Below the pieces are notes generated by a model. The model was not told the DNA's origin. It was given only the letters and a program-made list of their open reading frames with translations, and did not search any database. Positions 9,171 to 56,458 of a DNA stretch of 64,000 bases are shown piece by piece. The stretch is taken from NCBI GenBank assembly GCA_015680905.1, contig CM027377.1, forward strand, positions 61,649,501-61,713,500. The letters run 5' to 3'. The stretch comes from Coptis chinensis (lineage: Eukaryota > Streptophyta > Magnoliopsida > Ranunculales > Ranunculaceae). Positions within the stretch are counted from its first letter, which is position 1, and every line of letters begins with the position of its first letter. The translations under genes and the position numbers were made by a program.

Positions 9171-9405
9171 CTATGAACAATGAGTGTTCATAGTCCATAC
9201 AAGACGCGTCTATGAACAATCAATGTTCATAGTCATGAGCTATGAATATTCTTTGTTCATACCACAATTGGACTATGAACAATGATTGTTCATATCACAA
9301 TGGACTATGTTCATACCACAATTGATTGTTCATAGTTCGGTGGAGCTATGAACACTCATTGTTGAACTATTGTTATGAGCTATGAACAATGAGTGTTCAT
9401 AGTCC
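9171..9405. repeat. palindromic array P1 (type II units)
   Basis: The array holds about eight units of the imperfect palindrome TATGAACA-N5-TGTTCATA, or degraded forms of it. Type II spacers are ATGAG, CTCAT, ATCAA and ATGAT. Linkers resemble CCACAATTGG and GTCATGAGC. Units occur in both orientations. Confidence 0.9.
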
Positions 9406-9655
9406 ATACTCTCATCCACCGTCTCCAAAGAGGAAGATGGCGAAGCCTCATCACCACTACTCACTTACGGTTCTCTCTCTCCATTCATTAACTTCAGCCC
9501 CACCACTCAAACTATCACTAGTCATAGACATTGCACAATCAAAGAAAGAAAGAAAGCTCAAATTTGTAAAGTTGAAAAGGCTAACCCGCTTCAAGTTGGA
9601 CGAGAGTTTTTTTTCTTTTCTTTCTTTCTTCTCTCTTTCTTTCTTTTTGGTATTT

Positions 9656-9703
9656 GGGTAAATCTATGGTGCGCAGGGTGTATGTCATCTGGACCACTCA
9701 CAC
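9656..9703 (+). repeat. MULE-like terminal repeat, left end
   Basis: The sequence starts GGGTAAATCTATGGTGCGCA and is matched in inverted orientation at 43413-43460 with one mismatch over 48 bp. Length and GGG start suit a Mutator-like terminal inverted repeat. Flanking bases do not show a clear 8-11 bp target duplication. Confidence 0.6.
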
Positions 9704-10091
9704 ACAAAAAGCTTCTAACAAGTCAAAAAACCCTCAACTGCCCAAACACCTCGAGACAATCAAAACGTTTCGTGTTCCCAAAACCTAAATCATTACACGC
9801 CCACAAATCGCCGTAACTTCGGGCCCACAAATCCAGCCCAAACAGTTCGCGCACATTCCCCAAAACCTTATTTCAAAACAAAACAGCTGTCAGACACGTG
9901 TTTTCAAATCTTTACTTTTTAAACCGTTCTTTCCACATGCAACAAATGTCCACATGCACCCTAGATTTACCCAAAAATAAAGGGGGCTGTGTAAGTACCC
10001 TCCGTTCTACACTACAGAGCACGTGTCCACAAGGCAGACGCGTCTTGCCCATTTCGTCCCACCACATCGGATCGTACCAACGACCCAACAA
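9704..10091. other. non-coding stretch inside the MULE-like end
   Basis: This is subterminal sequence next to the terminal repeat at 9656, moderately rich in C on this strand. I see no coding frame with a recognisable domain and no repeat shared with the rest of the window. Confidence 0.3.
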
Positions 10092-10150
10092 GAGTATGAA
10101 CATTCAGTGTTCATACTCCTAGTGAACTATGAACACGAAAGTATGAACAA
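10092..10150. repeat. palindromic array P2 (type I units)
   Basis: The array has two units, one complete with spacer TTCAG and one degraded, immediately upstream of repeat R-A copy 1. The same array-to-R-A junction recurs at 22146, 32631 and 35054. Confidence 0.85.
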
Positions 10151-11351
10151 CAAAGGAAAGGAAGGAGAGAGAAGAAATGGGACCCATGATTGTCCTTAAG
10201 ACCTTAACTCATTACTAGATTCGGCTCGAGTTGTAGACTCAAGCTCAAAGCCATTTTCCTTCTGAACAAAGTACATGGCTGTCCACCTAAGCAAAAAACT
10301 GGCCATTAGATTAATTGATCCAACACGCTATTTAGAGTAGAAAGTGAAAGTGAGTAAACCGATCCCTTCCCCTATATCTATATTTCTTGCCGTTTGAGAG
10401 TCGGTTGATTTGTGAATTTGTTCTTTACTTAAATAGTTCAATTTTTATTTCGGTATATTTCCGACATCGATATATTTCAGTTCAATTTGTTATGGTGGTA
10501 TATTGCATCCAAGATATGAGGGCCTTTGGATCAATTACATCGGATTGCAATACACATATGAGTGCCCCCAGATGTGAGGGCACACCATACATATAGCACC
10601 ATAGATTTAGCCAATAGCTAAAGACAATATAGTGTTCTTAATTGTATTTTATTGTTTTTCACATATACTGATGTTCTGAGGCATCCAGCTCCATTGCCTA
10701 ATTCCACAATTGTCAAGGAAACACAAGCAGGTGCAACGACAGTGCAAGGGGCATCAGATTTTCAGCAAGAAGGACCTCGGTGCAGCAACTACAAAGAGAT
10801 GTAGTTGACGTTGGCAAACAAAAGAAGGAGAATAAGCGGAAGCTTGGTGTTGAAGAGTCAAATTCCACTCCTAAAGTTGCCAGGATTACAAGATCGATGA
10901 AGCGCCCGGAGGGTGACATTTGTGGAGTTTTACGCCAAAGCAATGTTACATTGGGTGTAGTCTTTCTATTCATAAACAGCCGAAAGTGTTTCTCTTCATC
11001 AAGTATTTTGGCAATGTAAATAATCGGTGACAAAGTTACAATCTGAGTTTGAAGTAGCCGATGCAAATCCGGAAGATTGTAAGCTTCTTCAAGACTTGGA
11101 AACTAAAGAAAGATGTTTAATCAATGCAGAATCAAATAGATTCCATGGCAACTATGTCCCAATCGAAATTCAATTACGTTACTATTGAGACATCTCGCAT
11201 GCCTAAGCCATGAAAATCCATGAAAACCTATAATCAATCAATCAATTAGTATATGACATTTACGTTAACTTAATGCGAAATCCGCGGCAATGAATCCTCC
11301 CTACATCAATTGTACCAGTCATTTACCAAAAAACCAAACCCAACAGAGACT
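10151..11351 (+). repeat. dispersed repeat R-A, copy 1
   Basis: This is the first of four closely similar copies (others at 22147-23130, 32632-33737 and 35055-35570). All begin right after a palindromic array with AACAACAAAGGAAAGG, then share a stretch with coding-like fragments such as NSTPKVARITRSMKR and SNRFHGNYVPIEIQ. I do not recognise the source gene. This copy carries an extra insert of roughly 120 bp that ends in a degraded MULE-like terminal sequence near 10570-10612. The repeat may be a non-autonomous element with captured exons. Confidence 0.75.
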
Positions 11352-11399
11352 TCATTTGTATTTAAATGAAAAGTAGCCTTGATTGCATACATACAATTG

Positions 11400-11583
11400 G
11401 ACTATGAACAATAATTGTTCATATCACAATTGGACTATGAACAGTGATTGTTCATAGTTCGGTAGCTATGAACACTCATTGTTCATACCTCATAGCTATG
11501 AACAATGAGTGCTCATAGTCCATATTGTACGTACTATGAACAATCAATGTTCATAGTCATGAGCTATGAATATTCTTTGCTCA
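11400..11583. repeat. palindromic array P3 (type II units)
   Basis: Six or so units of TATGAACA-N5-TGTTCATA lie here, with the ATGAG/CTCAT/ATCAA spacers and the same linkers as P1. P3 follows R-A copy 1 by about 50 bases. Confidence 0.85.
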
Positions 11584-11698
11584 AGAACTCTAAAGGACTG
11601 TTATCTCGATTCATTCATGCATACATTGATTAGGCTATTTCATTAAGGACTATTATTTGATTAGCACTGCTAAAAAGTAAAAACTAAGAAAATTGCAT

Positions 11699-12265
11699 TC
11701 ATATGTTTATATGTTTATTCATTACAGGGATATGGCACTCATATCTTGATTCATTCATGCATACATTACTTTTAAGACACATTTTTGCAAAGTCTGATAG
11801 TGCCATCTTTATGGTAATCGTTGGGTCAAATTTTTCAGTCTTTTGTCTTGCCTCCCTCATTGCATCAGACAGCCACTCAAAACTTAAACATAGTGAGCAT
11901 TTTAAGTACTTCCTCCCAGTGTTCAACCCATATTGAGTAGTCTTGAGTGACCTCTCTCCACCACACATCTTGTTATTGCAGACACAATCGTTCCATGGGC
12001 ATTGTATCTTCCAGTGGCTTGTATCTCCCCACTTGTGACATCCATTTGTTGAATCATTTTTAACATCTAAAATAGCCTCATCAAGGCATTTTAATCCACT
12101 TTGACAGTTCCCATATAGGCACTTTAGATACTTTCTATCGGGATTTCTTGATGTTAGAGAGAGCTGCAACATAAGAAACCCATCACATTTAGGATCTTTG
12201 CAGGGGGTTTACACCCAAGGACATCTATAAGCTGGATGTCCTACTTCATCGCAAATTTGGCACTG
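11699..12265 (-). CDS. duplicated zinc-knuckle plus GRF zinc-finger ORF, partial
   Basis: Two tandem modules are visible on the minus strand. Each has a CCHC-like knuckle (C-Q-I-C-D-E-V-G-H-P-A-Y-R-C in the first) followed by a GRF-type finger with N-x-G/D-R-K-Y-L-K-C. The second finger continues to C-L-S-F-E-W-L-S-D, the usual GRF ending. One stop separates the first knuckle from its GRF finger; the rest is open to 11699. GRF fingers bind nucleic acid and occur in plant DNA-processing proteins and transposon ORFs. With a Ulp1-type ORF upstream on the same strand, it may be the tail of that element's gene, but no splice link is proven. Confidence 0.6.
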
Positions 12266-14365: not shown

Positions 14366-14396
<31 letters not shown>

Positions 14397-15650: not shown

Positions 15651-17357
15651 TTCTTTGGGACTGTTCTTAGTTGAAGGTTTGTTGTGGTTTTTGGTTGGTG
15701 GTCTTGTCTGTTTTCCGCTCTTAGTTGATTTATTCTCACATTGTGTTATTGCCCTCCTCTTTGGAGGCTGAACAAAATCATTATCACTACTATTCTCACC
15801 ATCACCCCTTCTTTTAGCACAAGGCCCGCTTCCTTCAATTAACTACAAATATGAAAGTACATATAAATTTACCAAGACACTATATCTGCTTCCAAAAAAA
15901 CATTTAAGGGATGTAATCGGAGTACAAGAGTACTTAATTAATTACCAATGGTTGTCGATCTTCTACAGAACATTTTCTTCTTTTCGCATGTTCCACTAAT
16001 ACCTGCAAGGGCTGAATCCAAGGGAAAATTTTATTCATCTCGCATTTTTTGTAGTGCAAATAATAACATACATTCAATAACACAAAAATCACCACATTTT
16101 CTTCATCATCCAGGACCAAATTTATTCCTATTTTAGTAGGCACCTTCCTCACTTCCTTAGCAGGCACCCGATTTAAATTCTACCAGTACAGGAGCACAAA
16201 ACATTAGGTTTACTCATAACTACATTGTGGCAATATGAAGATACATCGCAGTACACATTACCACAGTTCGTTGCTCCACATGACCACTTTCAATTATTAG
16301 GAGATTGCTCTAAGAACAACTTTGCGGCCTGGGCTACGACTGCAATTACGAGATCACGGATGACAAGCTTTGTCAAGATCTAAAATTCTCAATATCAATA
16401 AAAAGTGCAACACGCCAAAATTAACCTCATTATGCTTCTTACGTTCGCTCACGAGAAAATGTCCAAAGAAAGAAGCTTCTTATCATCGGGTTCTTCTTTG
16501 TAACAAACCATGAAATTCAAAGCACCAATTCAGTAAAAATAATAATAACAGAACAACCATCCATCAAATCCAAAGTAACAAGACTTATAAACCTTTTAGC
16601 CTTTTCGTAGACTCCCTCGCTTGCCGTTGGAGGAATATGTAACTTACCCAAAGGTTTCTTGGGGTTGTTTAATTTGGTCTCCCAAAGTTCTCCCCGGTGG
16701 TTTTCCGTGGAAACCCACCCAACTTCAAAACCAGGGGAATATCTCCCCATCCACCCGGTGGACATTCAAAGTGGGCACATGAAGGAAAACCCAACACTCG
16801 AATGCTAGTGCACACCCATATAGGGTGTGGGTAAACGGCTTTTTCCGGTTGAACCGAAAGTGCTTCTCCATATCTGTATGTAGAGCCTCAACACCACCAC
16901 TTAATGCCTTCAAACGTCGATACCCCCAAGGGAATTTGTCAAACTTCTTCAAATCAGCTGCAATATCAATATGTTTGACATCAACGCCCTTCGAACCGCT
17001 TTGGCAAGAGGAAAGCCCGAAAGCACAAACAAACGGTTAAGTCGGTGGATGTCATCCACGTGTGTTCGGATCACTACGCATTTAAACTCTCTTAGCTTTT
17101 TTTTTTTCCTTTGTGCCGCAAACTCGGTCAAGATAACGCCCCAAGCGAGTCGAAAGCGTCTTCCTCGGGCTGAAAATACCTTAGACGAAAATCGGAAGGG
17201 TCAAACACGTCCATTTTGTAAAACCACCGAGGTGGTGGCTCGTGGATAGACCCGGTAAGGAGGGCCACATCGGAAGGATTGAAAGTCAAATAATCGGTTT
17301 CCTATGTTGAAAGTCATTGGCAAAATCTTCTTTTCCAAAACCTCAACAATCAAATTT
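15651..17357. repeat. 1.7-kb segment duplicated at 45531-47236
   Basis: Starting at TTCTTTGGGACTGTTCTTAG, the sequence runs collinear with 45531-47236 on the same strand, with small indels and substitutions. It covers the N-terminal half of the Ulp1-type ORF. It shows that two insertions of the same element family lie in the window. Confidence 0.85.
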
Positions 17358-21941: not shown

Positions 21942-22146
21942 TCATAGTCCAACAAGAGTATGAACATTCTATGTTCTTAGTCCACTAGGAGTATGAACAC
22001 TGAATGTTCATAGTCCAACAAGAGTATGAACATTCAATGTTCATAGTCCACTAAGAGTATGAACACTTAATGTTCATAGTCCAACAATAGTACGAACATT
22101 CAGTGTTCATACTCCTAGTGGACTATGAACACTGAGTATGAACAAC
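21942..22146. repeat. palindromic array P4 (type I units)
   Basis: About seven type I units alternate between spacer TTCAG/TTCAA and its complement CTGAA, with linkers GTCCAACAAGAG and GTCCACTAGGAG. The array abuts R-A copy 2. Confidence 0.95.
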
Positions 22147-23130
22147 AAAGGAAAGGAATGAGAGAGAAGAAATGGGACCCATGATTGTCCTTAACTCATT
22201 ACTAGTTTCGGCTCTTGAGTTCTCGACTCAAGCTCAAAGCCATATTCCTTCTGAACAAAGTACATGGCTGCCCACCTAAGCAAAAAACTGGCCATTAGAT
22301 TAATTGATACGACACGCTATTTAGAGTACGAAAGTGAGTAAACCGATCCATTCCCTATATCTATATTTCTTCGGCCGTTTGAGAGTCAGTTGACTGTGAA
22401 TTTGTTCTTTACTTAAATAGTTCAATTTGTTATTTCGGTATATTAAAGGACATCTGATATATTTGACAATATAGCTAAAGACAATATAGTGTTCTTAATT
22501 GTATTTTATTGTTTTTCACATATACTAATGTTTTGAGGCATCCAGCTCTATTGCCTAATTCCACAATTGTCAAGGAAACACAAGCAAAAGTAACGACAAA
22601 AAGGCAAGGGCATCGATTTTCAGCTAGAAGGACCCTCGGTGCAGCAACTACAAAGAGATGTAGTTGACGTTGGCAAACAAATTAAAAGAAGGGGAATAAG
22701 CGGAAGCTTGGTGTTAAAGAGTCAAATTCCACTCCTAAAGTTGCCAGGATTACAAGATCGATGAAGGGTCTGGAAGGCTGACATTTGTGGAGTTTTATGC
22801 CAAAGCAATGTTACATTGGCGTAGTGTTTTCTCTTCATAAACAGACGAAAGTGTTTCTCTTCATCAAGTATTTTGGCAATGTAAATAATCAAGTGACAAA
22901 GTTACAATCTGAGTTTGAGTTTGTGTGCAAAATCCGTAAGATTGTAAGCTTCTTCAAGACTTGGAAACTAAAGAAAGATGTTTAATCAAGCAGAGTCAAA
23001 AGATTCCATGGATGTTTAAGGATAGAATCAAATAGATTCCATGGCAACTATGTCCCAATCGAAATTCAATTTGTTACTATTGAGACATCGCTTTTGACCT
23101 AAGCCATGAAAATCCATGAAAACCTATAAT
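22147..23130 (+). repeat. dispersed repeat R-A, copy 2
   Basis: It is collinear with R-A copy 1 from AACAACAAAGGAAAGG to the CCATGAAAATCCATGAAAACC segment. Unlike the other copies it runs into an F-box-associated ORF instead of the tail that ends in CCCAACAGAGACT. Confidence 0.8.
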
Positions 23131-24021: not shown

Positions 24022-24114
24022 CAACAAGAGTATGAACATTTAGTGTTCGTAGTTCCATTGTATGAACACTGAATGTTCATAGTCCAACAAGAGTATGAAC
24101 ATTCAGTGTTCACA
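24022..24114. repeat. palindromic array P5 (type I units)
   Basis: Three type I units in alternating orientation with the GTCCAACAAGAG linker. Confidence 0.9.
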
Positions 24115-24599: not shown

Positions 24600-25204
24600 A
24601 TGCATTTACCTATTGGTTTGCTGCGGACATTTTGGAGACTGTATTCTTACTAGACTACTGAGCATATTAATTGTCAATTTCTCCTTTTTGATCCGAAGAT
24701 TTATTTTCTCAACCAGTTTTGTCTTCTGCAAAATAACAAGAAGTTATTCCTTTATTTATGTTAGAAGATACAAAAGTTTCTTCTCATTTTAGTGTGGAAA
24801 TTACCATGTCTTTTGCAATTTTGAATGACTTTTCCTCGTGTTTTAAGGAGTTGAAATGTAACCATTTCTCTTGTTGTCCCATTACGAACTCCACAACCAG
24901 TAGTGTCCAATGGTTTTCTGAATGTATTGGAATCGCCAAGAATTTGGCACTCAAGTCGATTGTGTCCACTATTTTTGCAATGCCTCCTTCCAGTATATGC
25001 TGTGACATTGAGTGCGTGAAATAATAAGAATGTGAGACCAACCACAAAATAGATATGAAACAATAATTTGAAATAAATAATTCACCTTTGAGTTGGCAGA
25101 CAGTAGACATGTTTCTTTTTTGGTTGGGAACCTTTTGCAAAGTTGGAGAGACCACCAGTCGATGACCTGTTGAATTGAGCATTTTTTAGATTCAAAACAA
25201 AGTA

Positions 25205-25430
25205 TAAATGAAGTAAGTTCTACAAATAAATGAAGGTCAGATATCAAAATTAAAAAATAGCAAAGTATAAACATTATTCGGTTGTTGTAAGGTCAGGTAT
25301 GAACATTCGTTGTTCATAGTTCAATGGTATGAACATTCATTGTTCATAGTCCACTAGGTGTATGAAGTATGAACACTGAATGTTCATAGCCCAACATGAG
25401 TATGAACATTCATTATTCATAGTCAAGAAA
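25205..25430. repeat. intron repeat with palindromic array P6
   Basis: The stretch CTACAAATAAATGAAGGTCA through AAATAGCAAAG followed by array P6 (25298-25422, type I) is repeated at 28602-28852 before array P9. Both copies lie in introns of the Ulp1-type gene, so an intron block with its array was duplicated. Confidence 0.85.
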
Positions 25431-26159
25431 GGGGTATCAGAATTTACCTGATAATCAATTTCCCTATCAAACAAAAGGTCTTCTACTAGAGAACCAACTA
25501 TTTGGAAATTGTCACCATCTCCCCATGCGATTATGCTTCAAAAACCCTAAGAAATTAGCATCAGTAAAAAATGCTATTTGATGTCATTTTAAACTAGTAA
25601 AACACTTACAGTCTTCCTAGATTTACCTGGTGCTTGCCATTTTGAAGAAAGTGTCAATAATTTGTCTATTGCTTTCTTCTAATCCATGATAGTAGGGACT
25701 TGTCTTAGGGTCTAGTAGTGGCCCACTGTCAATATCTCTGACTTGCTTCCCCTTATCAAGAATTTCTTTGCCATTGTCAAGGCTCATTACTTTTTTTTGA
25801 GTGGTTTCGTCTTCCCTTCTTTGGTGAAATTGGGGTCCATCTACATAGTTTTCCTATCTCTGTTGTTGTTTCACTTTCCGATTATGGAAGTCATTTTAAT
25901 TTCTTTTCTCGGCTTCTTTCTCCCCATCATTTTCTCGTTCTTTTTCTTTCTCCTTGGGTATAGGTGTGAGAGGAATACGGATGGAAATTGATGGACCTCT
26001 AAAGTCCGGAGACTCATTTGGCACCATTTCTACACACTCATTTGGCACCATTTTGCATCCTTATTGAACACCATTTCTGCATCCTCATTCGATTACATGA
26101 TGGTGGACTACTTTTTTCAGTTTGAGGTTGCACTTCTTCCTTATCCCCTCTTTGCCGGT

Positions 26160-26520
26160 CCTTCTTTTTTCAAGTCTTCCTTGAACTTTTCATTTTCTTC
26201 TTTGCACAACAGAAGTTCTTGTTCGAGTGTGTTCACCTTCTTTTTCAACTCTTCCTTCAACTTTCCATTTTCTTCTTTGCACAAAAGAAGTTCTTGTTCA
26301 AGTGTATTGACCTTCTCCCTCAACTCTGCCTTGAACTTTTCATTTTCTTCTTTCCACAACTGAATGTCTTGTTCGAGTGTGTTGACCTTCTTTTTCAACT
26401 CTTCCTTCAACTTTGCACAAAAGAAGTTCTTGTTCAAGTGTGTTGACCTTCTCCCTCAACTCTTCCTTCAATTGTTTTCTTTTCTTCTTTGCACAATTGA
26501 GAAGGTCTTGTTCGAAAGAA
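26160..26520 (-). repeat. coding minisatellite, 78-bp unit, coiled coil
   Basis: About four and a half copies of a 26-residue unit are encoded on the minus strand, with core LKKKVNTLEQELLLCKEEN. Heptad spacing of Leu and Val and the charge pattern fit a coiled coil. Units differ by a few residues and some are shortened. Confidence 0.9.
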
Positions 26521-26618
26521 GGTCTTGTTGACCTTCTCCCTCAAAATTTGGTTCTCCAATCTTATTGACATGGCCTCATCATCTTCTTCAGTCATAGGCT
26601 GGACAATCATTTCTTGAT

Positions 26619-27345
26619 CAGAGGGTACAACGCCACTAGATATGTTCTGCAGCAATGCTATTTCATCATCTGTTATACCTTCGACATCAACAATTACCGA
26701 TAAAGTTCAAAGATCAACAATTAGTGTTTGAAATTTGGACCATGAACAATCAATGTTCATACTCTTATTAGACTATGAACATTCAGTGTTCATTCCTATT
26801 TGGGGGTATGAACAATGATTGTTCATAACCAGTTTAGTGGTATGAACAATATTTGTTCATAACTATTTTTGGATATTAATAATACTAATACTACAGTATA
26901 TTTATACACTAATACTATAGTGTGTATTTATACACTTCATATAGGTTGAAATCTACCTGATCAGAGGGTACAACGTCACTAGATATGTTCTGCAGCAATG
27001 CTATTTTCTCATTTGTTAAAGCGAATTTGCACCATGGCAATCAACAATTATCGATAAAGTTCAAAGATCAACAATTAGTGTTTGAAATTTGCACCATGAA
27101 CAATCAATATTCATACTCTTATTGGACTATGAACATTCAATGTTCATGCCTATTTGGGGGTATGAACATTCAGTGTTCATGCCTATTTAGGGGTATGAAC
27201 ACTGATTATTCATAGCCAGTTTAGTGGTATGAACAATATTTGTTCATAACTACTATTGGATATTAATAATACTAATACTATAGTATATTTATACACTAAT
27301 ACTATAGTGTGTATTTATACACTTCATATAGGTTGAAATCTACCT
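26619..27345. repeat. tandem duplication carrying palindromic arrays P7 and P8
   Basis: Two units (26619-26956 and 26957-27345) share GATCAGAGGGTACAACG, a middle part with array P7 (26740-26863) or P8 (27095-27250), and an end with TATAGTGTGTATTTATACAC. Each array has four or five units with mixed spacers. The duplication came after the arrays had formed. Confidence 0.85.
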
Positions 27346-28601
27346 GATCAGCTTTTAACATGTTGTCTTTGTTGCCGAATTGTCCAATCAATTTCTTGAT
27401 TCCATCTCGCACACCTTGGGAATTTTCTTTCATGATTTTCCACCTTTTTAATGAGTGTGGTGTGCTCACATATCCAAAACTGCAATGTGTGTGATGAAAC
27501 CCATATTTAGTGCTAAAAATGTTATACAAACAGGCATTTACAAAGATTTCATATATGAAAAATCATTGTTCATACTCCACCAATTGTTATACAAACATAC
27601 AAACATATATATTAAGGAGATGCAGTTGAAATACTATACCATAAACATTATTGTGCATCCACTGATCGTCTTTATCTTTGTCTTTTTGTGCTTTTTGGCT
27701 GCAGCAATCAATTCGTCGTGTATGGCATTGGGCCAAGACAACTTTCTCAATGATTCCAAGTTTTCTACAGCCTTGATTAAGGGCCAAGTTACTCTGGAAT
27801 TGGCGTTAGCAAAGAAGCAAGTGGTGAACATATAAAGCGACATCAACCTTGAGAAATCTTCAGCTGCATGTTCATCATTTGTCTCATTCAAGGTCTGCAG
27901 TATTGCACCCCTTATATCAGCCTTGTTGATTATTGATTTCTCCCCACCACCCAAGTACTTTGATATGAATCTTGTTTGTTTATCTTTAGAACCAATAGTC
28001 TCCGTTGGATTAAAAAACATTTCTGTTACAGGCAGCCCAAACATTAGATTTATCTCCTCATAAGTCAGCTTTAAACTTTTTCCATCTATCTGAAATTCAT
28101 TAGAGTTGAAATAATATTTGTCCAAGAGATTAAATATTTCTTTGTTGGGCTTGTTTACGTTACCTTCTACAATCTCCCCTTCCCACAATGCTTTAAACAA
28201 CAACCAGAATGGTGTCTTCTTCATTGCCTCAACATAATTTTCTGGAATTTTCTTTTCCTTTAGAAGTTTTACTAGTTTTATCATACAGGAGAGGCTGCTT
28301 CGCAGTTGAGGTGCCTGTACCTTGGTCGATACTAGTTCCTTTCCCTGATCTTCCTTCTCCTCCTCTTCATTCTCCTTTTCACTCTCCTATTCTGCCTTCT
28401 TTTTAGAAACTATTTTCCTACTCTTCTTTTTAGGAACTACTTTGCTGCTTGACTCTTTCTTCCTTTTCTTGGTAGGAGTGCTACTCGATTCTGGCTTCTG
28501 TTGCTTAGTTGCAGATTTCGAACATGCTCTTTTCCCTGGGGACTTATTTTTCTTTGATTTGTTCTTCCTCTTTGATTTGCTTTTCATCCCTTGGAATAAT
28601 T

Positions 28602-28852
28602 CCTACAAATAAATGAACAAATAAATGAACGTCAGATATCGAAATTAAAAAATAGCAAAGTACCTTACAAACATTAGTCTGTTGATGTATGGTCAGGTAT
28701 GAACATTCACTGTTTATAGTTCAATGGTATGAACACTGAATGTTCATAGTCCAACAAGAGTATGATCATTCAATGTTCATAGTCCACTAAGAGTATGAAC
28801 ACTGAATGCTCATAGTCCAACAAGAGTATGAACAATGAATGTTCATACATAT
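28602..28852. repeat. intron repeat with palindromic array P9 (type I)
   Basis: This partner of the block at 25205 contains five type I units at 28698-28852, in alternating orientation. One isolated degraded unit follows at 28917-28938. Confidence 0.85.
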
Positions 28853-28939
28853 ATTTCCTAACATTCATATCCTAACATGTAAACTGTGCAAGTTACCATG
28901 AAAATCCAAATAGTGATATGAACAAATAATGTTCATATC

Positions 28940-31990: not shown

Positions 31991-32002
31991 ACCGATCCTA
32001 GA

Positions 32003-32525: not shown

Positions 32526-32631
32526 GTTCATAGTCCACTAAGAGTATGAACACTCAATGTTCATAGTCCAACAATAGTATGAACATTCAGTGTTCAAACT
32601 CGTAGTGGACTATGAACACTGAGTATGAACA
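32526..32631. repeat. palindromic array P10 (type I units)
   Basis: Four units between the MuDR-like exon and R-A copy 3; the linkers are those of P4. Confidence 0.9.
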
Positions 32632-33737
32632 ATAAAGGAAAGGAAGGAGAGAGAAGAAATGGGACCCATGATTGTCCTTAACTCATTACTAGTTTTTCAG
32701 TTCTTGAGTTCTCCTCGAACAAAGACTCAAGCTCAAAGCCATATTCCTCATTTTAACAAAGTACATCATTTGAGTGATGTAAAAAAAAAATCCTCAAAGT
32801 TGGAAAAACTAATATTTTGGCCATTAGATTAATTGATCCGACACGCTATTTAGAGTACGAAAGTGAGTAAACCGATCCCTTCCCTATATCTATATTTCTT
32901 CGACCGTTTAAGAGTCAGTTGACTGTGAATTTGTTCTTTACTTAAATAGTTCAATTTGTTATTTCGGTATATTAGAGAACATCTGATATATTTGACAATA
33001 TAGCTAAAGACAATATAGTGTTCTTAATTGTATGTTATTGCTTTTCACATATACTAATGTTCTGAGGCATCCAACTCCATTGCCTAATTCCACAATTGTC
33101 AAGGAAAACAGGTGTGCATCGGCGATTGTAAGGGGCATCAGATTTTCAGCAAGAAGGACCCTCGGTGCAGCAACTACAAAGAGATGTAGTTGATGTTGGC
33201 AAACAAAAGAAGGAGAATAAGCGGAAGCTTGGTGTTAAAGAGTCAAATTCCACTCCTAAAGTTTCCAGGATTACAAGATTGATGAAGCGTCTGGAAGGCT
33301 GACATTTGTGGAGTTTTATGCCAAAGCAATGTTACATTGGTGTAGTGTTTCTCTTCATAAACAGACGAGTGTTTCTCTTCATCAAGTATTTTGGCAATGT
33401 AAATAATTAGGTGACAAAGTTACAATCTGAGTTTGAAGTAGCCCATGCAAATCCAGAAGATTGTAAGCTTCTTCAAGACTTGGAAACTAAAGAAAGATGT
33501 TTAATCAATGCATAATCAAATAGATTCCATGGCAACTATATGTCCCAATCGAAATTCAATTCTGTTACTATTGAGACATCTACAAAGCCTAAGCCATGAA
33601 AATCCATGAAAACCTATAATCAATCAGTCATCATGTATATGACTTTTACGTTAACTTAATGCGAAATCCGCGGCAATCAATCTTCCCTACATCAATTGTA
33701 CCAGTCATTTACCAAAAAACCAAACCCAACAGAGACT
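32632..33737 (+). repeat. dispersed repeat R-A, copy 3
   Basis: It is collinear with copy 1 through the tail ending CCCAACAGAGACT, so copies 1 and 3 define the right boundary near 11351 and 33737. Confidence 0.8.
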
Positions 33738-34850: not shown

Positions 34851-34893
34851 TTCCTAAGTATAATGGGTGAAACTAAGAAGGACTGAAAAACTA

Positions 34894-35054
34894 AGAGTAT
34901 GAACATTCAGTGTTCATAGTCCACTAGGAGTATGAACACTGAATGTTCATAGTCCAACTAAGAGTATGAACACTGAATGTTCATAGTCCAACAAGAGTAT
35001 GAACACCATTCAGTGTTCATACTCCTAGTGAACTATGAACACTGAGTATGAACC
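34894..35054. repeat. palindromic array P11 (type I units)
   Basis: Five or six type I units alternate in orientation and abut R-A copy 4. Confidence 0.9.
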
Positions 35055-44080: not shown

Positions 44081-44298
44081 TCAATGTTCATAGTCCAATT
44101 GTGGTATGAACAAAGAATATTCATAGCTCATGACTATGAACATTGATTGTTCTTAGTACGTACAATATGGACTATGAAAACTCATTGTTCATAGCATTGC
44201 ACTCATTGTTCATAGCTATGAACAATGAGTGTTCATAGTTACCGAACTATGAACAATCACTGTTCGTAGTTAACTTTCGGTATGTTTTTGTTCAAACT
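44081..44298. repeat. palindromic array P12 (type II units)
   Basis: Six or more type II units with linkers such as GTCCAATTGTGG and GTTACCGAAC. The array runs straight into repeat R-B. Confidence 0.9.
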
Positions 44299-45530: not shown

Positions 45531-47236
45531 TGTTCTTTGGGACTGTTCTTAGTTGAAGGTTTGTTGTGGTTTTTGGTTGGAGGTCTTGTCTGTTTTCCGC
45601 TCTTAGTTAATTTATTCTCACATTGTGCTATTGCCCTCCTCTTTGAAGGCTGAACAAAATCATTATCACTACTATTCTCATCATCACCCCTTCTTTTAGC
45701 ACAAGGCCTGCTTCCTTCAATTAACTACAAATATGAAAGCACATATAAATTTACCAAGACACTATATCTGATTCCCAAAAAACATTTAAGGGATGGACTG
45801 GAGTACAAGAGTACTTGATTAATTACCAATGGTTGTCGATCTTCTACAGAACATTTTCTTCTTTTTGCATGTTCCACTAATACCTGCTAGGGTTGAATCC
45901 AAGGGAAAATTTTATTCATCTTGCATTTTTGTAGTGCAAATAATAACATACATTCAATAACACATAAAAATCACCACATTTTCTTCATCATCCAGGACCA
46001 AATTTATTCCTATTTTAGTAGGCACCTTCCTCACTTCCTTAACAGGCACCCGATTTAAATTCTACCAGTACAGGAGCACAAAACATTAGGTTTACTCATA
46101 ACTACATTGTGGCAATATGAAGACACATCGCAGTACACATTACCACAGTTCGTTGCTCCACATGACCACTTCCAGTATTATGAGATTGCTCTAAGAACAA
46201 CTTTGCAGCCTTGTTTACGACCTGCAATTACGAGATCACAGATGACAAGCTTTGTTAGTATTGAAATTCTCAATATCAATAAAAAGTGCAACACGCAAAA
46301 ATTAACCTCATTCTGCTTCTTCTGTTCAAAGAAAATGTCCAATGAAAGAAGCTTTTTATCATCAGGTTCTTGCTGTAACAAACCATGAAATTCAGCACCA
46401 ATTCAGCAATAAAAATAACAGAAAAACCATCCATCAAATATTCGAATCCAAAGTAGCAAGACTTATAAACCTTTAGCGCTTTTCTGTAGACTCCCTCTAC
46501 TTGCACCGTCGGAAGAATATGTAACTTACCCAGCACAGTCAGTTTCTTGGGGTTGTTTAATTTGGTCTCCCAAGTTCTCCCCGGGTGGTTTTCGTGGAAA
46601 CCCACCCAACTTTGAAACTAGGGGAATATCTCCCCATCCCCTCGGTGGACATTCAAAGTGGGCACATGAAGGAAAACCCAACACTCGAATGCTAGTGCAC
46701 ACCCATATAGGGTGTGGGTAAACGGCTTTTCGGTTGAACCGAAAGTGCTTCTCCATATATGTATGTAGAGCCTCAACACCACCACCACGAATGCCTTCAA
46801 ACGCCGGATACCCCAAGGGAATTTGTCAAACTTCTTCAAATCAGCTGCAATATCAATATGTTTGACATCAACGCCCTTCGAACCGCTTGGCAAGAGGAAA
46901 GCCCCGAGCACAAACAAACGGTTAAGTCGGTGGATGTCGTCACAGGTGTTCGGATCGCTACGTACAGAAACTCTCTTAGCTTTTTTCCTTGTTGCCGCAA
47001 ACTCGGTCAGCATAACGGCCCCAAGCGGAGTCGGGCGTCTTCGCTCCGGCTGAAAATACCTTGGACGAAAATCATAAGGGTCAAACACGTCCATTTTGTA
47101 AAACTACTAAGGTGGTGGCTCTGTGGATAGACCGGTAAGGAGGGCCACATCGGAAGGATTGAAAGTCAAATATCGGTTTCCAATATTGAAAGTCATTGCC
47201 AAAATCTTCTTTTCCAAAACCTCAACAATCAAATTT
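45531..47236 (-). pseudogene. Ulp1-type ORF, copy 3 (N-terminal half only)
   Basis: This is the partner of 15651-17357. It encodes VMLTEFAATRKKAKRVS, DDIHRLNRLFVLGAFLLP, KKFDKFPWGIRRLKAF and ALAFECWVFLHVP on the minus strand. The longest frame (46618-47094) is less broken than in copy 1. The Lys-rich N-terminus and the protease domain are both missing; at 47236 it joins repeat R2. Confidence 0.7.
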
Positions 47237-47261
47237 CACATAGACAAATGTATATATATCA

Positions 47262-47475
47262 TTCTGTTTGACATACATGATAGTATGTCATCCGAATAGT
47301 CAGCCAAGAAAGTATGTCATAAGTAACACCTTTCGAAGGTACTATGTAAACATAACGTTATATGTGATTATAAAGAACATACATAGTATAGTATGTCATG
47401 AAAAATATCATAGCATACCGTCATACATAACAAACTATATACCCAACGCGGTACGAATGTATTATGTAAAAATAA
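47262..47475. repeat. repeat R2, copy 1 (left part)
   Basis: CATACATGATAGTATGTCAT through ACGCGGTACGAATGTATTAT matches 50571-50766 closely. Only the left part of R2 is here; its right part is at 55324-55470. Confidence 0.85.
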
Positions 47476-47572: not shown

Positions 47573-48167
47573 GAACTATGATCAATCATTGTTCATAGTC
47601 CAATTGTGATATGAACAAAGAATGTTCATAGCTCATAATATGATTAACTCAAAATGATTAACTCTTAATATCACTGTTCATAGTCCAATTGTGGTAACTC
47701 TTAATATGATTAACTCAAAACCAAAACTGAAAACTCTAATACATACTACCAGCCTTTATATAGGCGAAATACCCTGATTACCACAAAACTTGAAATTTTT
47801 CAAAAATGGAAAGTTTTGGGATAACCACATATTAAGAAACTACTAATCAAAATATAACTAACACAGCTGACCAAATAAAAAACGGACTCTCCTATCAAAA
47901 GATATAGCAAAAACAAAACTTTCCTAAAATGGCAAAAACGTGATTTTGAATGCCTAAACGATGGATTTAAGGCCCGAGAGGGTGGTGCCCATGGCAAAGC
48001 AGTGGGTTATGCTTATTTTGATGTTTCCAATCAAATATGGCCGCGTCCATGTCTTTCCGACTTTGTTGCCCGCTTTTCCAGTTCATTGACATATGCATTG
48101 GCAACCTGTACTGCATCACATATGCCAAGTTCAATGACATATGCATTGGCTAATGCATCATCAATGG
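47573..48167. other. array P13 and unassigned stretch
   Basis: Palindromic array P13 (two or three type II units) lies at 47571-47635. The rest is AT-rich with CTTTATATAGGCG near 47754, which looks promoter- or LTR-like, but I find no partner ends. No gene. Confidence 0.45.
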
Positions 48168-48288
48168 TTGTTCATATGAACAATGAGTGTTCATAGGTCA
48201 TGTTAAGATATGAACAATGAGTGTTCATAGCTCATATTGGGGTTTGAACAGTGATTGTTCATACCCCAAATAGGTATGAACAACCACA
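48168..48288. repeat. palindromic array P14 (type II units)
   Basis: Three complete units and one half unit with spacers ATGAG and GTGAT. It lies just past the 3' end of the FAR1-related gene. Confidence 0.9.
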
Positions 48289-48685: not shown

Positions 48686-50480
48686 CTATATCAAATTAAA
48701 CATTAATATCACAATCATAACCTGTGAGGTATCAAAGAAAGACTCTTCAACTTCATTATCTTCGTCTCCTTCGTTCGAAGATATATTCAATGTTGAGACA
48801 TGCTTAGCCATTTCATCCATCTTTTCTATAAAATATGAATAAGCATCAACACTACTCCCCGCATCGTAAGCCACTTGAGAAGCAACCTTGATACAATGAG
48901 CCACTCTCAAAAGTTCATGGTTTTCATGGCCGCCACTAATCCAAAGATGAAACTCCGCTTTATATCGTGTTTGCCTTTTGCATCCACCGCTTCAAAAGAA
49001 AATGCCTTGGAATCTCTTCAATTTCGTAACGCTGAAAAATCTTTAACATGTGACCACAAAGTAACCCCATAAACTGAAAATACTTACATTCACAGTCTCC
49101 CTTTAAGGTTCCTCTATTGAAACTCACTTTCCAAACGGACTTCTTCTGTGGGTCTCTGAATTTCACCATGTAGCTTCCAGTTCCATTGTTAACAATCTCG
49201 TCCCCATCAATTTTGTACTCCATCTTTGCCTTCTCTAATTGCTCCTTAAATATATTGAATGCATTAATCGTATAGACCTTCGCAGCATGCATAAGGAGGA
49301 AAGCATCTTTAGCCACAATTCGTGAATTATGCTCAGTGCGGTAATCAGCATCTCTTTCATTCCTAGTAATCAAAGACAAAGATCTCTCATTACCATGTAC
49401 AAACTCCATCAGCATAGTGCTCGAATTCATGAATTGGTCTTAACGAGAATTCATCGATTCACTCCTCCCAGTCGTATGCATACCAGCAAAAAATGTGTCA
49501 CTGAGATAACAAGGAACCCATTTCTCTCGCATATTATACATTTTTGTCAACCAAGGATTTGTAGACAACTCATTCTTCTCTATTATTGTACACCATCTTC
49601 TTTCAAAACCAGCAATCTTATACGAGGAGAGACCCTAGCAAAAGGTCAGAAGCAATGGTGGGAGAATAGACCTAATTTTGTTTATAGGTTAGAGAATCAA
49701 CACTCTACTTATTTCAGATTTATTTCTTAAAAATTTAGGAAATGTATGTTGGAGTGGTCTACCCAGGGCCCTCACAAAATGTATACTGTTTGTTCTTTGC
49801 TATCTAATACAAGAGCTTACCCTTTAGCAAAAAAAATATACGAGGAGAGAAATAGTGTTATTCAGGTCAGTTACCAGTGTCTTAATTTTAGTAAAGGATA
49901 GCTTCTCTTGAAATTTCTGCATAATATGCCAAAGACAGTAACGATGATGAGTATCAGGGAACACTTTTGCAATGGCTACAGTCATCGCTCTATCCTGGTA
50001 AGTGATGATTGTAGTTGGCGCACGACCACCCATGGCTGCAAGCCAGGCCTTAAACAACCATATGAATGTATCTTCTGTCTCATCAAGTAACAGCGCGCAA
50101 CCAAATAAATGAATCAACTGCATGCTGATTGACTCCAGTAAAAGGGGCAAAAGGCATAGAGTATGCATTCATACGTTATGTGGTATTAAAAGAGACAACA
50201 TCCCCGAAATACTTATACTGCACTCGAGACCTCCCATCAACCTAGAAAAAGTTTACTACAGTCCCATTTTGATCTAGATCAATAGCGTAGTAAAACTGGG
50301 GATTCTCGGCACTCTTCTGCATAAAATATTTAAGCACGGCAGTTGCATCACCTTCTTTAGGCATCTTTCTAATCAAACCATAATGATGGTTCCAACAATC
50401 CTTATTTGTAATGCTAACCCAACTTCTTCCCCACTAAAAACAGCTGCAACTTTACTGACAGGTAAACCGTGTTCACCAAA
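48686..50480 (-). pseudogene. FAR1-related sequence (MULE transposase) gene, disrupted
   Basis: The minus strand encodes most of a FAR1-RELATED SEQUENCE protein, a transcription-factor family derived from Mutator-like transposases. FYYAIDLDQNGTVVNFF is near 50290. SRVQYKYFGDVVSFNTT lies near 50200, where Asn stands in place of the catalytic Asp. LLLDETEDTFIWLFKAWLA and FPDTHHRYCLWHIMQKF are at 50090-49900. HTTGRSESMNSR, with the Glu, is near 49470. The SWIM finger CECKYFQFMGLLCGHMLKIF is near 49080, and the C-terminal helical region is at 48910-48690. The N-terminal FAR1 zinc finger is absent; repeat R2 begins there. A LINE insertion splits the transposase domain, and extra stops exist, so it is a pseudogene. 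Confidence 0.85.
49633..49836 (+). mobile_element. 5'-truncated LINE insertion with 14-bp target duplication
   Basis: TATACGAGGAGAGA occurs at 49619-49632 and 49837-49850. The 204-bp insert ends with CCTTTAGC and an A tract, a typical plant L1 3' end. It lies in the coding part of the FAR1-related gene, on the opposite strand. Confidence 0.9.
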
Positions 50481-50568
50481 AATCCTAGCTCATACGTAGT
50501 AAAGTATGTCATTAAAAACGTTTCACTAAAAATTAGTATAAACAAATAATTGTCTATATCAATATGTT

Positions 50569-50960
50569 GACATACATGATAGTATGTCATCCGAATAGTC
50601 ATAGCCAAGAAAGTATGTCATAAGTAACACCTTACGAAGGTACTATGTAAAAATAACGATATATGTGATTATAAATAACATACATAGTATAGTATGCCAT
50701 GGAAAATATCATAGCATACCGTCATACATAACAAAGTACATACCCAACGCGGTACGAATGTATTATGTAAAATTTTTACATAATACATAGTATTATGTAA
50801 TGTGCTTTTAATTAACATACATAGTATAGTATGTTATGCAAAATTTCATAGAGTACAGAGTACGTGGTCTACTACCCGGTACATAAGAATTAAGGATAGT
50901 TTTATAAACAGAAAGTATATCATACTTTATGCCAAATATATGCAACTAGAAATGGCATTG
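50569..50960. repeat. repeat R2, fullest copy
   Basis: It contains the left part found at 47262-47475 and the right part found at 55324-55470 in one continuous run. TATGTCAT words and a palindrome TTTTACATAATACATAGTATTA near 50775 are in the middle. Confidence 0.8.
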
Positions 50961-51210
50961 TGGAAGCATGCGACATATGCAGTGAGATGTCAACGATTGG
51001 AGTTTTTACCTTGTGAAAGTATGTCACTTAAAGTAAGTGACATATCGGCCCGTCAGTTTTGTAAGAAGTGACATAACATATAAGTATGACAGTTATAGTG
51101 TCATATCTACTCACAGAGCTTATATACGACATTATTTGGACGACACTGAATAAGCTATGCACAACACTAAATAACAAATAAAGTTTATATACGACAATGT
51201 ATAAGCTGTC
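50961..51210. other. non-coding stretch
   Basis: AT-rich sequence with scattered TATGTCA words. No gene is seen. Confidence 0.35.
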
Positions 51211-51452
51211 CAACAAGAGTATGAACATTCGTTGTTCATAGTCCGACAAGAATATGAACATTCATTGTTCATAGTCCAACAAGAGTATGAACATTCACTG
51301 TTCATAATTCAATGGTATGAACACTGAATGTTCATAGTCCAACAAGAGTATGAACATTCAGTGTTCATAGTCCACTAGGAGTATGAACACTGAATATTCA
51401 TGGGTCAATTTGAGATACCCCCCTGTTTGAGCCACTAGGAGTATGAACACTT
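51211..51452. repeat. palindromic array P15 (type I units)
   Basis: Seven or more type I units with GTCCAACAAGAG and GTCCACTAGGAG linkers, the last ones degraded. Confidence 0.95.
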
Positions 51453-52679: not shown

Positions 52680-54960
52680 TAAATCCATAACATTTTTTGG
52701 AACCCTTTTATACCACTTCACGATCCTTGGTTCCATTATAGTTGCCCAATCCCAAGCTTTTGTCTATGCAAATGACTCCCACCCTGGAGCAAGTGGCGGA
52801 ATAGGACTATCATCTTCAAGCACGAGTTTCACAAAATGTGTGCCTCCTCCAATGTGGCCTATTGCCGCTTATCCGACACGAAGTTGGATCGGGAGCAGTC
52901 CACAAAGGAAAGTATGACATACATTCTTTCTCTCCAATGACGACAAGGACACACTGAAAAGTATTAGCGGCTAAAAATCCCATTGAAGGAAGTTCAAACC
53001 ATTCTTTAGGGTTCATCGTATATGGAAATGTACATCGTAGATTTGTCTGGACCGCTTCTTTTCATTCTTCTCCACCCATCATTAAAGTATAATCTGCCTC
53101 ATGGGAAATCAACTCTGTCAACATAAGAGCCTTCACAGTAATCCATGCATCATCTCCATTAGACCCTAAGCATCGTGCAATAGCGCTAAATCCACAATGT
53201 CCATTCGGTTCAACATCTTGCCAATCCACAATGAAGTCTCGTATCAATGGATTTAAGTCACGTAGCCCATCATCCCAATTAGACCCAATTTCAGGTAAAT
53301 CTATAAACACTTGAATATGAGTTCTTCTTGGTTTTCTTTTGCATGGTACCAACTTTTTGGCTTTACTATTCTTGCTTTCTTGAGTTACAATTTGTTCCTC
53401 AACTGTTTGTGCATACTTGAAAGCTGAAGGCTCTCTCTTTGTGTCCCTTTTATCTTTACAAGTCTTCACACCAATTTTTATTCCAGGTGGCCTACCCCTC
53501 ACATTGGTGTTGACCCGAGGCTCTCGCATGAAAGTTGCCTTTGGATCACCTAGTTCTACACACTTTTTCAGCATCAAAACCTTGTGTTCATCTGAGAGCA
53601 ACTGAAACTTCTTCTGAATTTGTGCAAGCTCGGGATGAATATCAAAGGACCCATTAGGAAGATCAATCAGAGTGCTACTAAGCTATCTCCACCTAGGGTG
53701 TATCAAAGATAAGGGGATGCTTCCCCTACCAATTAGAACAATTTCACATAACTCATGCGCACAAGGAAGCCCATACATACTTTTGTAAACACAACGACAA
53801 CGAATTTCATCTGTCCCAACTCTAACAGACCTTATTATCTCTTTTGCTATCAAATCCAATGCATCTCTAGAAATGTACCCTCTAAGTTGCACATATGTGT
53901 TTTGTTTGTAACGATGATCCCAGAGATTCAAGCTCCTATTAAAAGAACTTTCAATTTCTGTCACTTGGTTTGTCAGGAGATTATTAATCAAATTAAAGTT
54001 TCGGCAGAAGTTACCATTATTGCTAGAACGCAAATGTCTCTTCAAAGAGGAATGCATACTTTCAATTCGGTTACTGCTCGAAGTACCAAAATGCATATGG
54101 AGATCTATCCAAGCTGAAACAAACCTTTCTTTGTACTTCAAAAGCCACTAGTCTTCTACATATTCCACAACACCATAATGATCTCCGTACTCAAGTTTAA
54201 AACAACATAGGTGTTCCAAGTACTCAACTTCAGTACAAGCTGTTATCACTATTTCGAACATAAACATAAATTGTTCATACTCAACAAATTTCTCAAATAT
54301 TTTTTTGGCCTTTGTCTCGATGTTCCTCCTGATGTGCTGCACGACCTATAAGATGCTCCCCAATATTATGATTATGAGTTCCACACATAACACTCAGTAT
54401 CCACCCACCTTCGTTTCGTAATTCCCCTTTCAACACAAATGGGATGACCACATTTTTCTTGATTTGGATTGCCTATATTCTTTTCGTTTTTGTTCAATAT
54501 TTTCGGCTTTACGGATGGTCTAAATTTTCCACTCCTTCCGCAACTCAAGAAAACTCTAGGTCTTCGCCTAAGTCCCGAATTATCAGACCTTGATATCACA
54601 ACCACAACTCCAACAGTCATACCAACTGTCGAACACCATCGGATCAACGAGTGACAATCTTCGAAGACCCGCGTAAACCCTTGATCTTAGATACTATTGA
54701 CGAAAATTGTTTTTTGCTAAGTTATTGATAAAATAAATAAAAAATACAAGCTTTCAAATTACATTATTACCTCAATTGTTGTAAATGATTCGGTCATATC
54801 GGGATAGCTAATTTCAACATTGTTGTAAAGTTCATCATCGGAATAATAATTTGATTGCAGTAGTGTTAAAGCTGACTCCATGTCACTTTTAACACTAATC
54901 AAAGTTATCATTTTGATTTTGGGGGGAGAATTTATCTTAAATGTTGCTTCCAGCACATGA
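52680..54960 (-). pseudogene. MULE transposase gene with OTU cysteine protease domain, core deleted
   Basis: The minus strand starts with an acidic N-terminus (54956), then RRPRVFLSCGRSGKFRPS and KCGHPICVERG near 54400-54560, the N-terminal zinc-binding region of this MULE type. The gene then jumps to KKIFEKFVEYEQFM, YKERFVSAWIDLHMHFGTS and NRIESMHSSLKRHLRSS, downstream of the catalytic core. A SWIM-like CRCVYKSMYGLPCAHEL lies near 53770. VEPNGHCGFSAIARCLG near 53210 is an OTU protease motif with Asp/Cys context. The matching His appears in a THFVKLVLEDDSP segment near 52820. The DDE core is missing by internal deletion, and frames are interrupted in the OTU part. OTU domains are deubiquitinase folds; their role in MULEs is unknown to me. 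Confidence 0.8.
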
Positions 54961-55130
54961 GTCCATTCTTAAAGTGAAAATTTGGTGGGAATAACAACAA
55001 TTTTGTGGGTGACTCAAGACTAACCTAAGAGAACAACAGAGGGAGGGGGAGAAATTTCAGAGAGCATGAGTGGTAGGAGTGTTCGTGGAGTAAAAAGTAC
55101 GGTGAAGAGCTTGTTTGAATTACAATGGGG

Positions 55131-55240
55131 TGTGGAGAGAGTTATTTAAGGTTATAATGGTCATATTAACAAAAAAATGGGGTGTGGAGAGAGTTATTTA
55201 AAGTTATAATGGTCATATTAACAAAAATGGGGTGTGGAGA
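55131..55240. repeat. subterminal tandem repeat, about 52-bp unit
   Basis: GGGGTGTGGAGAGAGTTATT through GGTCATATTAAC repeats twice, then the first 15 bases appear a third time. It lies upstream of the MULE-OTU gene, between it and the terminal repeat at 55292, a usual place for MULE subterminal repeats. Confidence 0.9.
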
Positions 55241-55291
55241 GAGAGCACTAGGTTTTTTTGGAATAAACTTGCCGTGTGTAGAGAGACAATC

Positions 55292-55312
55292 GGGGTGTGA
55301 CGAGTTTTACTC
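55292..55312 (-). repeat. 21-bp inverted terminal repeat, right
   Basis: Partner of 47552-47572 (19 of 21 matches). On the minus strand it reads GAGTAAAACTCGTCACACCC plus one base. Repeat R2's right part starts a few bases outside it. Confidence 0.55.
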
Positions 55313-55323
55313 ATAAGTTAATA

Positions 55324-55470
55324 TTTCATAGAGTACAGAGTACGTGACCTACTACCCGGTACATAAGATTGCATTGTAAAAATATGGATACATGTTATAA
55401 AAAATATCATATAAGCTGTAGTATGTAATTAATAGTTCTATAAACAGAAAGTATATCATACTTTATGGGT
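55324..55470. repeat. repeat R2, copy 3 (right part)
   Basis: TTTCATAGAGTACAGAGTAC through AGTATATCATACTTTATG matches the right part of the R2 copy at 50838-50937. Confidence 0.85.
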
Positions 55471-55479
55471 GGTCCAATG

Positions 55480-56150
55480 GTTCAATGTAAAACAATTGTT
55501 TAATTTAATAAGAGTTTTATACGTTTGATAGTATGTCATAAGCGCTACAATCACTGATATGACTATACTCATATATGTTATACTCGAATGTTATGTCACT
55601 TTTTATAAGATATGTCAATAAGAGTTTTATATGTTGGGTCTAATCACAGATAGATATGACACTATATATGTCATACTCAAATATTATGTTACTATAATAT
55701 ATGATATTATAATATATGCTAGTAAGAGTTTTATATGATATATATGACACTATATATGTCATACTCTAATGTTATGTCACTTTTTATAACATAATTCAAT
55801 AATATACGTTGGCTATATGTCATACTCAAATGTATGTCTCTTTTTATAATATATGTGAATTAGAGATTTATACATTCGGTAGTTGAATCACATATATATG
55901 ACACTATATATGTCATACTCAAATGTTATGTCACTATTTATAATATATGCTAATAAGAGTTTTATACTTTTGGTAGTATTATTAGCGCTAGAATCGCTGA
56001 TAGATATGACACTATATATGTTATACTCGAATGTTATGTCACTTTTTATAATATATTCGTTTGGTAGTATATCATAAGAATCACAGATAGATATAACACT
56101 ATATTTGTCATACTAGAATATTATGTTAACATATGACATATTCCTCTACA
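55480..56150. repeat. AT-rich satellite with TATGACA/TGTCATA palindrome
   Basis: About six diverged units of roughly 90-120 bp each contain TATGACACTATATATGTCAT, an imperfect palindrome, followed by ACTCRAATGTTATGTCACT and GAGTTTTATAC. The same satellite continues at 56605-56755, beyond array P16 and R-B copy 2, so those were inserted into it. Confidence 0.85.
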
Positions 56151-56171
56151 ACCGCTCCAACCTTCTGTTAT

Positions 56172-56458
56172 GTTTATAGTCCAATTGTGGTATGAACAAA
56201 GAATGTTCATAGCTCATGACTATGAACAATCATTGTTCATAGTCAATTGTGGTATGAACACTCATTGTTCATAGCATTGAGTGTTCATAGCTACCGAACT
56301 ATGAACAATGAATTGTGGTATGAACAAAGAATATTCATAGCTCATGACTATGAGCATTGATTGTTCGTAGTACGTACAGTATGGACTATGAACATCTCAT
56401 TGTTCATAGCTACCGAACTATGAACAATTCTACTTTCCGGTATGTTTCTGTTCATACT
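56172..56458. repeat. palindromic array P16 (type II units)
   Basis: Eight or so type II units, some degraded, interrupt the satellite and run into R-B copy 2. Confidence 0.9.

Follow-up and report, generated by a model that had tools for sequence, protein, structure and literature searches.

A 21-bp palindromic unit recurs in short arrays in a 64,000-nucleotide stretch of the Coptis chinensis genome (GenBank assembly GCA_015680905.1, contig CM027377.1, positions 61,649,501–61,713,500 of the forward strand; the whole stretch is referred to below as the window). The window consists of plant-like DNA with remnants of Mutator-like elements (MULEs), namely transposase, SWIM, FAR1 and plant mobile domain (PMD) sequences together with weak Ulp1 and weak DUF1985 matches, and the arrays lie in and around these remnants. 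It is possible that a protein encoded by a MULE, most likely a VANC/KIU-like one with an anti-silencing role, binds to these units. We propose this tentatively and would put its chances at somewhat less than even.

The unit was searched for as TATGAACA-N5-TGTTCATA with no more than 3 arm mismatches, and 100 shuffles served as the control. The window contains 68 matches, 38 of them without any arm mismatch, as compared with a shuffle mean of 0.95 and a shuffle maximum of 4. The N5 centre proves to be constrained as well: T stands at position 9 in 62 of the 68 units and A at position 11 in 61, and position 10 holds C or G, again in 61 units, with only positions 8 and 12 being variable. The full unit is TATGAACA-N-T-S-A-N-TGTTCATA, and because centre positions 9, 10 and 11 are constrained the dyad is written here as TATGAACANTSANTGTTCATA. 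Its arms contain no CG or CHG site; CHG is present in some of the centres (e.g. TTCAG). A first-pass annotation of the same DNA had attributed 16 clusters to this palindrome family, and all 16 positions hold units, to within about 25 bp.

When unit matches separated by less than 250 bp are grouped, 17 clusters result, including 3 single matches (10095, 27554 and 54259; the last one, with 2 mismatches, may be due to chance). There are 15 arrays of 2–6 units, with the short motif in tandem and mostly 30–34 bp apart (Table 1). Of the 47 intervals shorter than 45 bp between neighbouring units, 23 measure 33 bp, 9 measure 30 bp and 6 measure 34 bp. The spacers are largely of recurring types, which we sorted into two groups under names of our own: group A includes GTCCAATTGTGG, GCTCATGAC and GCTACCGAAC, and group B includes GTCCAACAAGAG and GTCCACTAGGAG. 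As a separate observation, CG is rare in the arrays: all 15 together contain 15 such sites, whereas randomly chosen segments of the same length have 44 on average (standard deviation 8).

The fairest test of constraint is one-arm anchoring, where only one arm is selected and the other parts are compared pairwise (133 anchors). Mean pairwise identity of the other arm is 0.68 and that of the 12-bp spacer is 0.31, the chance level being 0.264; identity at centre positions 9 and 11 is 0.71. Within a subset of six arrays (57 anchors) the arm identity is 0.73 versus 0.32 for the spacer. These values support long-term constraint on the unit. Under one-arm anchoring, the earlier view that the arms are conserved while linkers and spacers vary holds for arms and spacers, and the five-base linker is itself constrained at positions 9–11; the preference for a constrained unit over simple slippage is supported on the long-term scale.

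None of the 68 units overlaps any of 20 chosen open reading frames (ORFs), comprising 14 with a family match, some of them below the cut-off, and 6 further long ones. The relation to genes is most distinct in a candidate Ulp1-like gene on the minus strand. Its Peptidase_C48 match (24.8–25.2 kb) has an E value of 0.0053 and scores 17.1 bits against a cut-off of 20.7. The open frame 26141–26455 of the gene contains a 75-bp (25-residue) tandem repeat in 3.4 copies (26160–26414). Three arrays are located between splice-like sites of this gene, from which the introns are deduced (in what follows, a slash marks the putative junction). The array at 27.1 kb lies between donor-like CAG/GTAGAT (exon end 27344) and acceptor-like CTGCAG/ (26990), and the array at 26.7 kb between the same pair of signals (donor 26957, acceptor 26647); segments 26615–26964 and 26958–27351 represent a tandem duplication of exon plus array with 82% identity. 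The array at 25.3 kb is bounded by donor-like CAG/GTAAAT (exon end 25448) and acceptor-like TTTGTAG/ (25220). A fourth array, at 28.7 kb, is positioned just upstream of acceptor-like TTTGTAG/ (28603), no donor having been located for it. On the plus strand, each of two further arrays (32.5 and 34.9 kb) is preceded by an open frame that ends in a GTGAGT donor-like site; these two frames resembled a MULE gene in its N-terminal portion and gave no Pfam family match. The first-pass annotation, which described the palindromes as the strongest signal that no ordinary gene explains, overlooks the position of the arrays in and around MULE-type genes.

According to the favoured mechanism, one of the local MULEs would encode a DNA-binding protein, dimeric or two-headed, that recognizes the dyad TATGAACANTSANTGTTCATA. 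This protein would most likely be of the VANC/KIU type, i.e. of the DUF1985 family, with an Ulp1 protease domain in addition in the case of KIU genes. Arrays of 2–6 sites with a typical separation close to three helical turns would concentrate the protein, which in turn, when bound at introns and at upstream and downstream non-coding DNA, would keep the elements unmethylated and unsilenced. By its layout only, the Ulp1-like gene is a candidate source of the binding protein.

The closest parallel is provided by the VANC targets of VANDAL21 and VANDAL6, which are Arabidopsis MULEs with VANC as their anti-silencing protein. In the available portions of Hosaka et al. 2017 (PMC5735166), these targets are described as short motifs in tandem in introns and in upstream and terminal non-coding DNA, with different motifs in different VANDAL families, and the VANDAL elements encode DUF1985 proteins. 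Along VANDAL21, the VANC21 signal is higher in introns, in intergenic stretches and in the terminal non-coding parts; its motif, YAGTATTAY, forms tandem repeats in the introns of VANC21 and VANB21 and upstream of VANA21, and VANC6 targets hold AGTTGTCC/AC (same portions of PMC5735166). The same non-coding regions are targeted by RNA-directed DNA methylation, according to the available part of Sasaki 2023 (PMC10398659). DUF1985 is present in VANC proteins, many of which also have peptide motifs in tandem, and the exon/intron layouts of their genes are tied to tandem repeats (PMC5735166, as above). The Ulp1-like gene of the window is similar in having arrays in its own intron-like stretches, a 25-residue tandem repeat and an exon-plus-array duplication. 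The present case differs in the 21-bp dyad, in the weak support for DUF1985 and in being known from sequence alone. KIU (Kaonashi) genes are Ulp1-carrying VANC genes that act on motifs in KIU-carrying VANDALs, and their Ulp1 domain is strongly conserved within the eudicot clade, as stated in the accessible part of a 2026 review (PMC13317346). Like KIU of the non-TIR (terminal inverted repeat) MULEs, as these are presented in the accessible parts of PMC13317346 and PMC2528002, the Ulp1-like gene is found in a MULE-rich region; unlike KIU, its Peptidase_C48 match is below the cut-off and its N-terminal ORF is unmatched.

Several observations weigh against a VANC/KIU-like target. The DUF1985 (E 0.0064) and Peptidase_C48 matches are weak, both being under the Pfam cut-offs. 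ORF 27634–28386 has no Pfam family match, DUF1985 included; its structure prediction without an alignment reached a mean predicted local distance difference test (pLDDT) value of 55, and a fold search gave nothing usable. Four PDB sequence searches yielded no meaningful match. The motifs YAGTATTAY and AGTTGTCC/AC, as given in the available portions of PMC5735166, are by our own reading of the letters not palindromes. In this the dyad stands apart from them, and it is a candidate VANC-type target, the DUF1985 and Ulp1 matches being below cut-off. The arrays sit in several different MULE-type genes, so that it is an assumption to assign them a single cognate protein. The tendency of the units to avoid coding ORFs is weak and no more than suggestive: 17 clusters placed at random miss the chosen ORFs in 8.0% and 2.4% of trials, and 15 of the 68 units touch unmatched stop-to-stop ORFs (10 of 168, each of at least 75 aa), among them ORF 27305–27562, which adjoins the inferred Ulp1-like gene and contains the lone unit at 27554.

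The comparison of recent duplicates points in the same direction. In 12 duplicate pairs the arms changed at 28 of 656 positions (4.3%) and the flanking DNA at 182 of 3368 (5.4%), the difference being not significant (Fisher p = 0.25), where the arm labels themselves derive from motif matching. Within duplicates, therefore, arms evolve no slower than flanking DNA, which argues against present constraint in the window; the first-pass annotation had named arms that evolve as fast as spacers as evidence against its own reading, and here the arms evolve about as fast as the flanks. The more frequent changes in centres (26 of 202) and spacers (41 of 428) were not relied on, since these counts are inflated by alignment that is apparently out of register (pairs 25.3/28.7 and Cl/Dl, with high centre rates). 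The two tests can be reconciled if active elements kept the site while dead copies now drift.

The result on duplicates also speaks for neutral minisatellites, i.e. functionless 33-bp units that multiplied through slippage and unequal exchange and hitch-hiked along with nested MULEs, as do the period of about 33 bp with its 66-bp higher-order unit and the variation of array length between duplicates. Slippage alone, however, does not maintain two arms (0.68) together with positions 9 and 11 of the centre (0.71) when spacers of differing sequence and length diverge (0.31), and we regard this explanation as rather unlikely. Another one relies on folding: array transcripts would form long hairpins processed into 24-nt small interfering RNAs that mark the elements for silencing. 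Array 21942–22150, the only one folded, indeed gives −100 kcal/mol as a single strand (z = −15.9), as is expected for any array of palindromes, and to that extent the earlier suggestion of a foldback source of small RNAs keeps a low probability. The arms tell otherwise. Among 544 arm pairs of the 68 units, 506 are unchanged, 38 have one-sided changes and none is changed on both sides; bases 8 and 12 of the centre can pair in just 13 of 68 units, and Rfam gave no match at the gathering threshold. Hairpin selection as the main cause is rejected on the basis of these 38 changed pairs without a single compensated change, and a foldback RNA source appears highly improbable. Under selection for a hairpin some compensated pairs would be expected, which a protein site does not require. 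Because arm changes are never compensated, a protein-bound dyad is favoured over a selected hairpin, and among the three options offered by the first-pass annotation (transposition end, protein-binding dyad, foldback) it is the best one.

A bound protein need not be of the VANC type. A FAR1/SWIM-type MULE transposase could bind dyads near element ends to assemble the transposition complex, with the intronic arrays being remains of nested small elements. A precedent is En/Spm, where TNPA binds subterminal motifs and the repeats are not known away from the element ends. The likeness consists in a clustered short motif in both orientations, bound there by an element-encoded protein; here, the arrays are also intron-like and the elements are MULE-type. 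In agreement with transposase sites, arrays flank the MULE/SWIM remnant 48960–50168 on both sides, another array is situated downstream of the 57.6–59.7 kb remnant, and two of the longer-repeat copies (10085 and 21984) start inside an array. On the other hand, a single gene has splice-like sites on either side of three arrays, and an acceptor downstream of a fourth. Furthermore, no terminal inverted repeat was found around the 48.2–51.4 kb remnant: with the units masked, the best inverted matches between the two sides are only 9–13 bp long (E at least 0.96). VANDAL-type non-TIR MULEs are characterized by missing or degenerate terminal inverted repeats and by a 9-bp target duplication; element ends were not found for the remnant here. 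Target-site duplications were looked for by eye where the four repeat copies at 10–35 kb begin and end, the sole borders inspected, and none was recognized. Transposase-binding subterminal repeats are thus an unlikely explanation, and the transposition-end option of the first-pass annotation is weakened by the intronic look of several arrays and by the short inverted matches.

The four longer-repeat copies just mentioned (10085–11351, 21984–23148, 32526–33737 and 34890–35567) start in or beside an array. The left flanks of the copies at 10085 and 21984 have no match to the left flanks of the other two, and the arrays may be break or recombination points. Flanks are common to the cluster pairs 25.3/28.7, 26.7/27.1 and 44.1/56.3 kb (alignments of at least 90 columns were listed). 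For the first-pass annotation, clusters found only within one long known repeat would have counted against its reading. The clusters do not all form part of one long repeat; yet those at 10.1, 22.0, 32.6 and 34.9 kb do share a longer one.

A second dyad, TATGACA-N7-TGTCATA, has 26 matches with up to 3 mismatches versus 5.6 expected. It has the 21-bp length and the outer TATG...CATA of the first dyad, and two of its 26 matches (27554 and 44173) coincide with units already counted for that first dyad. Six copies are exact, five of them being located in 76-nt repeats at 55.5–56.8 kb around the 56.2 kb array. That 76-nt AT-rich repeat is present in eight copies between 55546 and 56766, several of which hold the second dyad. 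The second dyad could mark another specificity: an equal length with a different half-site fits diverging specificities such as those of VANC21 and VANC6. Most strong copies of the second dyad, however, are members of one local repeat family. A broader version of the binding-site reading is that one dyad address is common in trans to the Ulp1-like, the PMD-linked and two transposase gene sets, so that a single dimer would protect a non-homologous MULE community and the second dyad would mark a competing specificity. We consider this version quite unlikely.

If the units are VANC/KIU-like sites, they would represent a palindromic, dimer-type target of a transposon anti-silencing system with a candidate gene for the protein beside the arrays; protein–target co-evolution would be testable in one locus, and the dyad could be used as a short DNA tag to direct methylation. 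Should this reading be wrong, MULE-type elements would still offer a clear case of a dyad array under constraint that they carry within and around them.

In collections of viral, bacterial and archaeal genome contigs a two-unit pattern had 0 viral and 0 bacterial or archaeal matches, and a single unit had 8 isolated viral ones. The literature was searched with five 12-base unit strings; by title, none of the papers found to contain one of them concerned plants or transposons, a result which does not prove the motif unpublished. Nothing else on arrays of palindromes was recognized among the literature matches listed. TATGAACA is absent from the literature matches listed, and TGTTCATA occurs there in one paper, on pneumococcal repeats. 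Among the matches listed, one paper combines 'vandal' and 'palindromic' (PMC10342631). It deals with the Short Interrupted Repeat Cassettes (SIRC) of Arabidopsis, which are alike in having short direct repeats with diverse spacers and are linked by its authors to MITEs (miniature inverted-repeat transposable elements); in the part of that paper available, there is no mention of SIRC being palindromic dyads located in introns of MULEs.

Table 1. Dyad arrays and coding remnants in the window (positions within the window; A and B are spacer groups; a slash marks a putative splice junction).
Feature	Position	Strand	Details
Retrotransposon gag	4.6–5.4 kb
Array	9172..9401		6 units, group A
Unit with partial units	10095..10150		One full unit; edge of repeat 10085–11351
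Array	11403..11583		5 units and 1 degenerate, group A; in inverse orientation to 44.1 kb array
Array	21942..22150		5 units and partials, group B
Array	24022..24114		3 units, group B
Candidate Ulp1-like gene	24784..28603	minus	Weak Peptidase_C48; 25-residue tandem repeats; N-terminal ORF 27634–28386
Array	25298..25421		4 units; between donor-like and acceptor-like sites, minus strand
Array	26741..26861		4 units; intron-like stretch, minus strand
Array	27095..27248		5 units; intron-like stretch; tandem duplicate of 26741..26861 array
Array	28698..28937		5 units (28698–28848) and one at 28917; upstream of acceptor-like site, minus strand
PMD	30.3–31.5 kb
Array	32526..32638		2 units and partials; 3' of donor-like ATG/GTGAGT (32474), plus strand
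Array	34898..35045		3 units and partials; 3' of donor-like ACG/GTGAGT (34806), plus strand
PMD	37.8–38.5 kb
Array	44081..44268		5 units and partial at start, group A
ORF with weak DUF1985 match	46618..47103	minus	E 0.0064, below Pfam cut-off
Array	47577..47630		2 units; upstream of weak DUF1985 ORF 46618–47103
Array	48156..48283		3 units and a poor one (3 mismatches); downstream of SWIM/MULE ORFs
MULE transposase remnant	48960..50168	minus	MULE and SWIM ORFs
Array	51208..51402		6 units; upstream of MULE ORF 49824–50168
Second dyad family	55655..56727		TATGACA-N7-TGTCATA in 76-nt repeats flanking 56.2 kb array
Array	56171..56428		5 units and partials; downstream of MULE/SWIM ORFs 57617–59721
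MULE transposase remnant	57617..59721	minus	FAR1, MULE, SWIM, weak zinc-knuckle match; several separate ORFs

Among the coding remnants, the minus-strand ORFs at 53062–54686, whose appearance suggests a FAR1-related transposase carrying an OTU-like protease portion, gave no such Pfam match. Two minus-strand gene remnants, 15651–17357 and 45533–47236, are 92% identical; the second one includes the weak DUF1985 ORF, and neither of them holds a unit. A 235-bp AT-rich segment is found, with 92% identity, at 47240–47471 and 50538–50772, upstream of the DUF1985-like ORF and of the MULE ORF, respectively.

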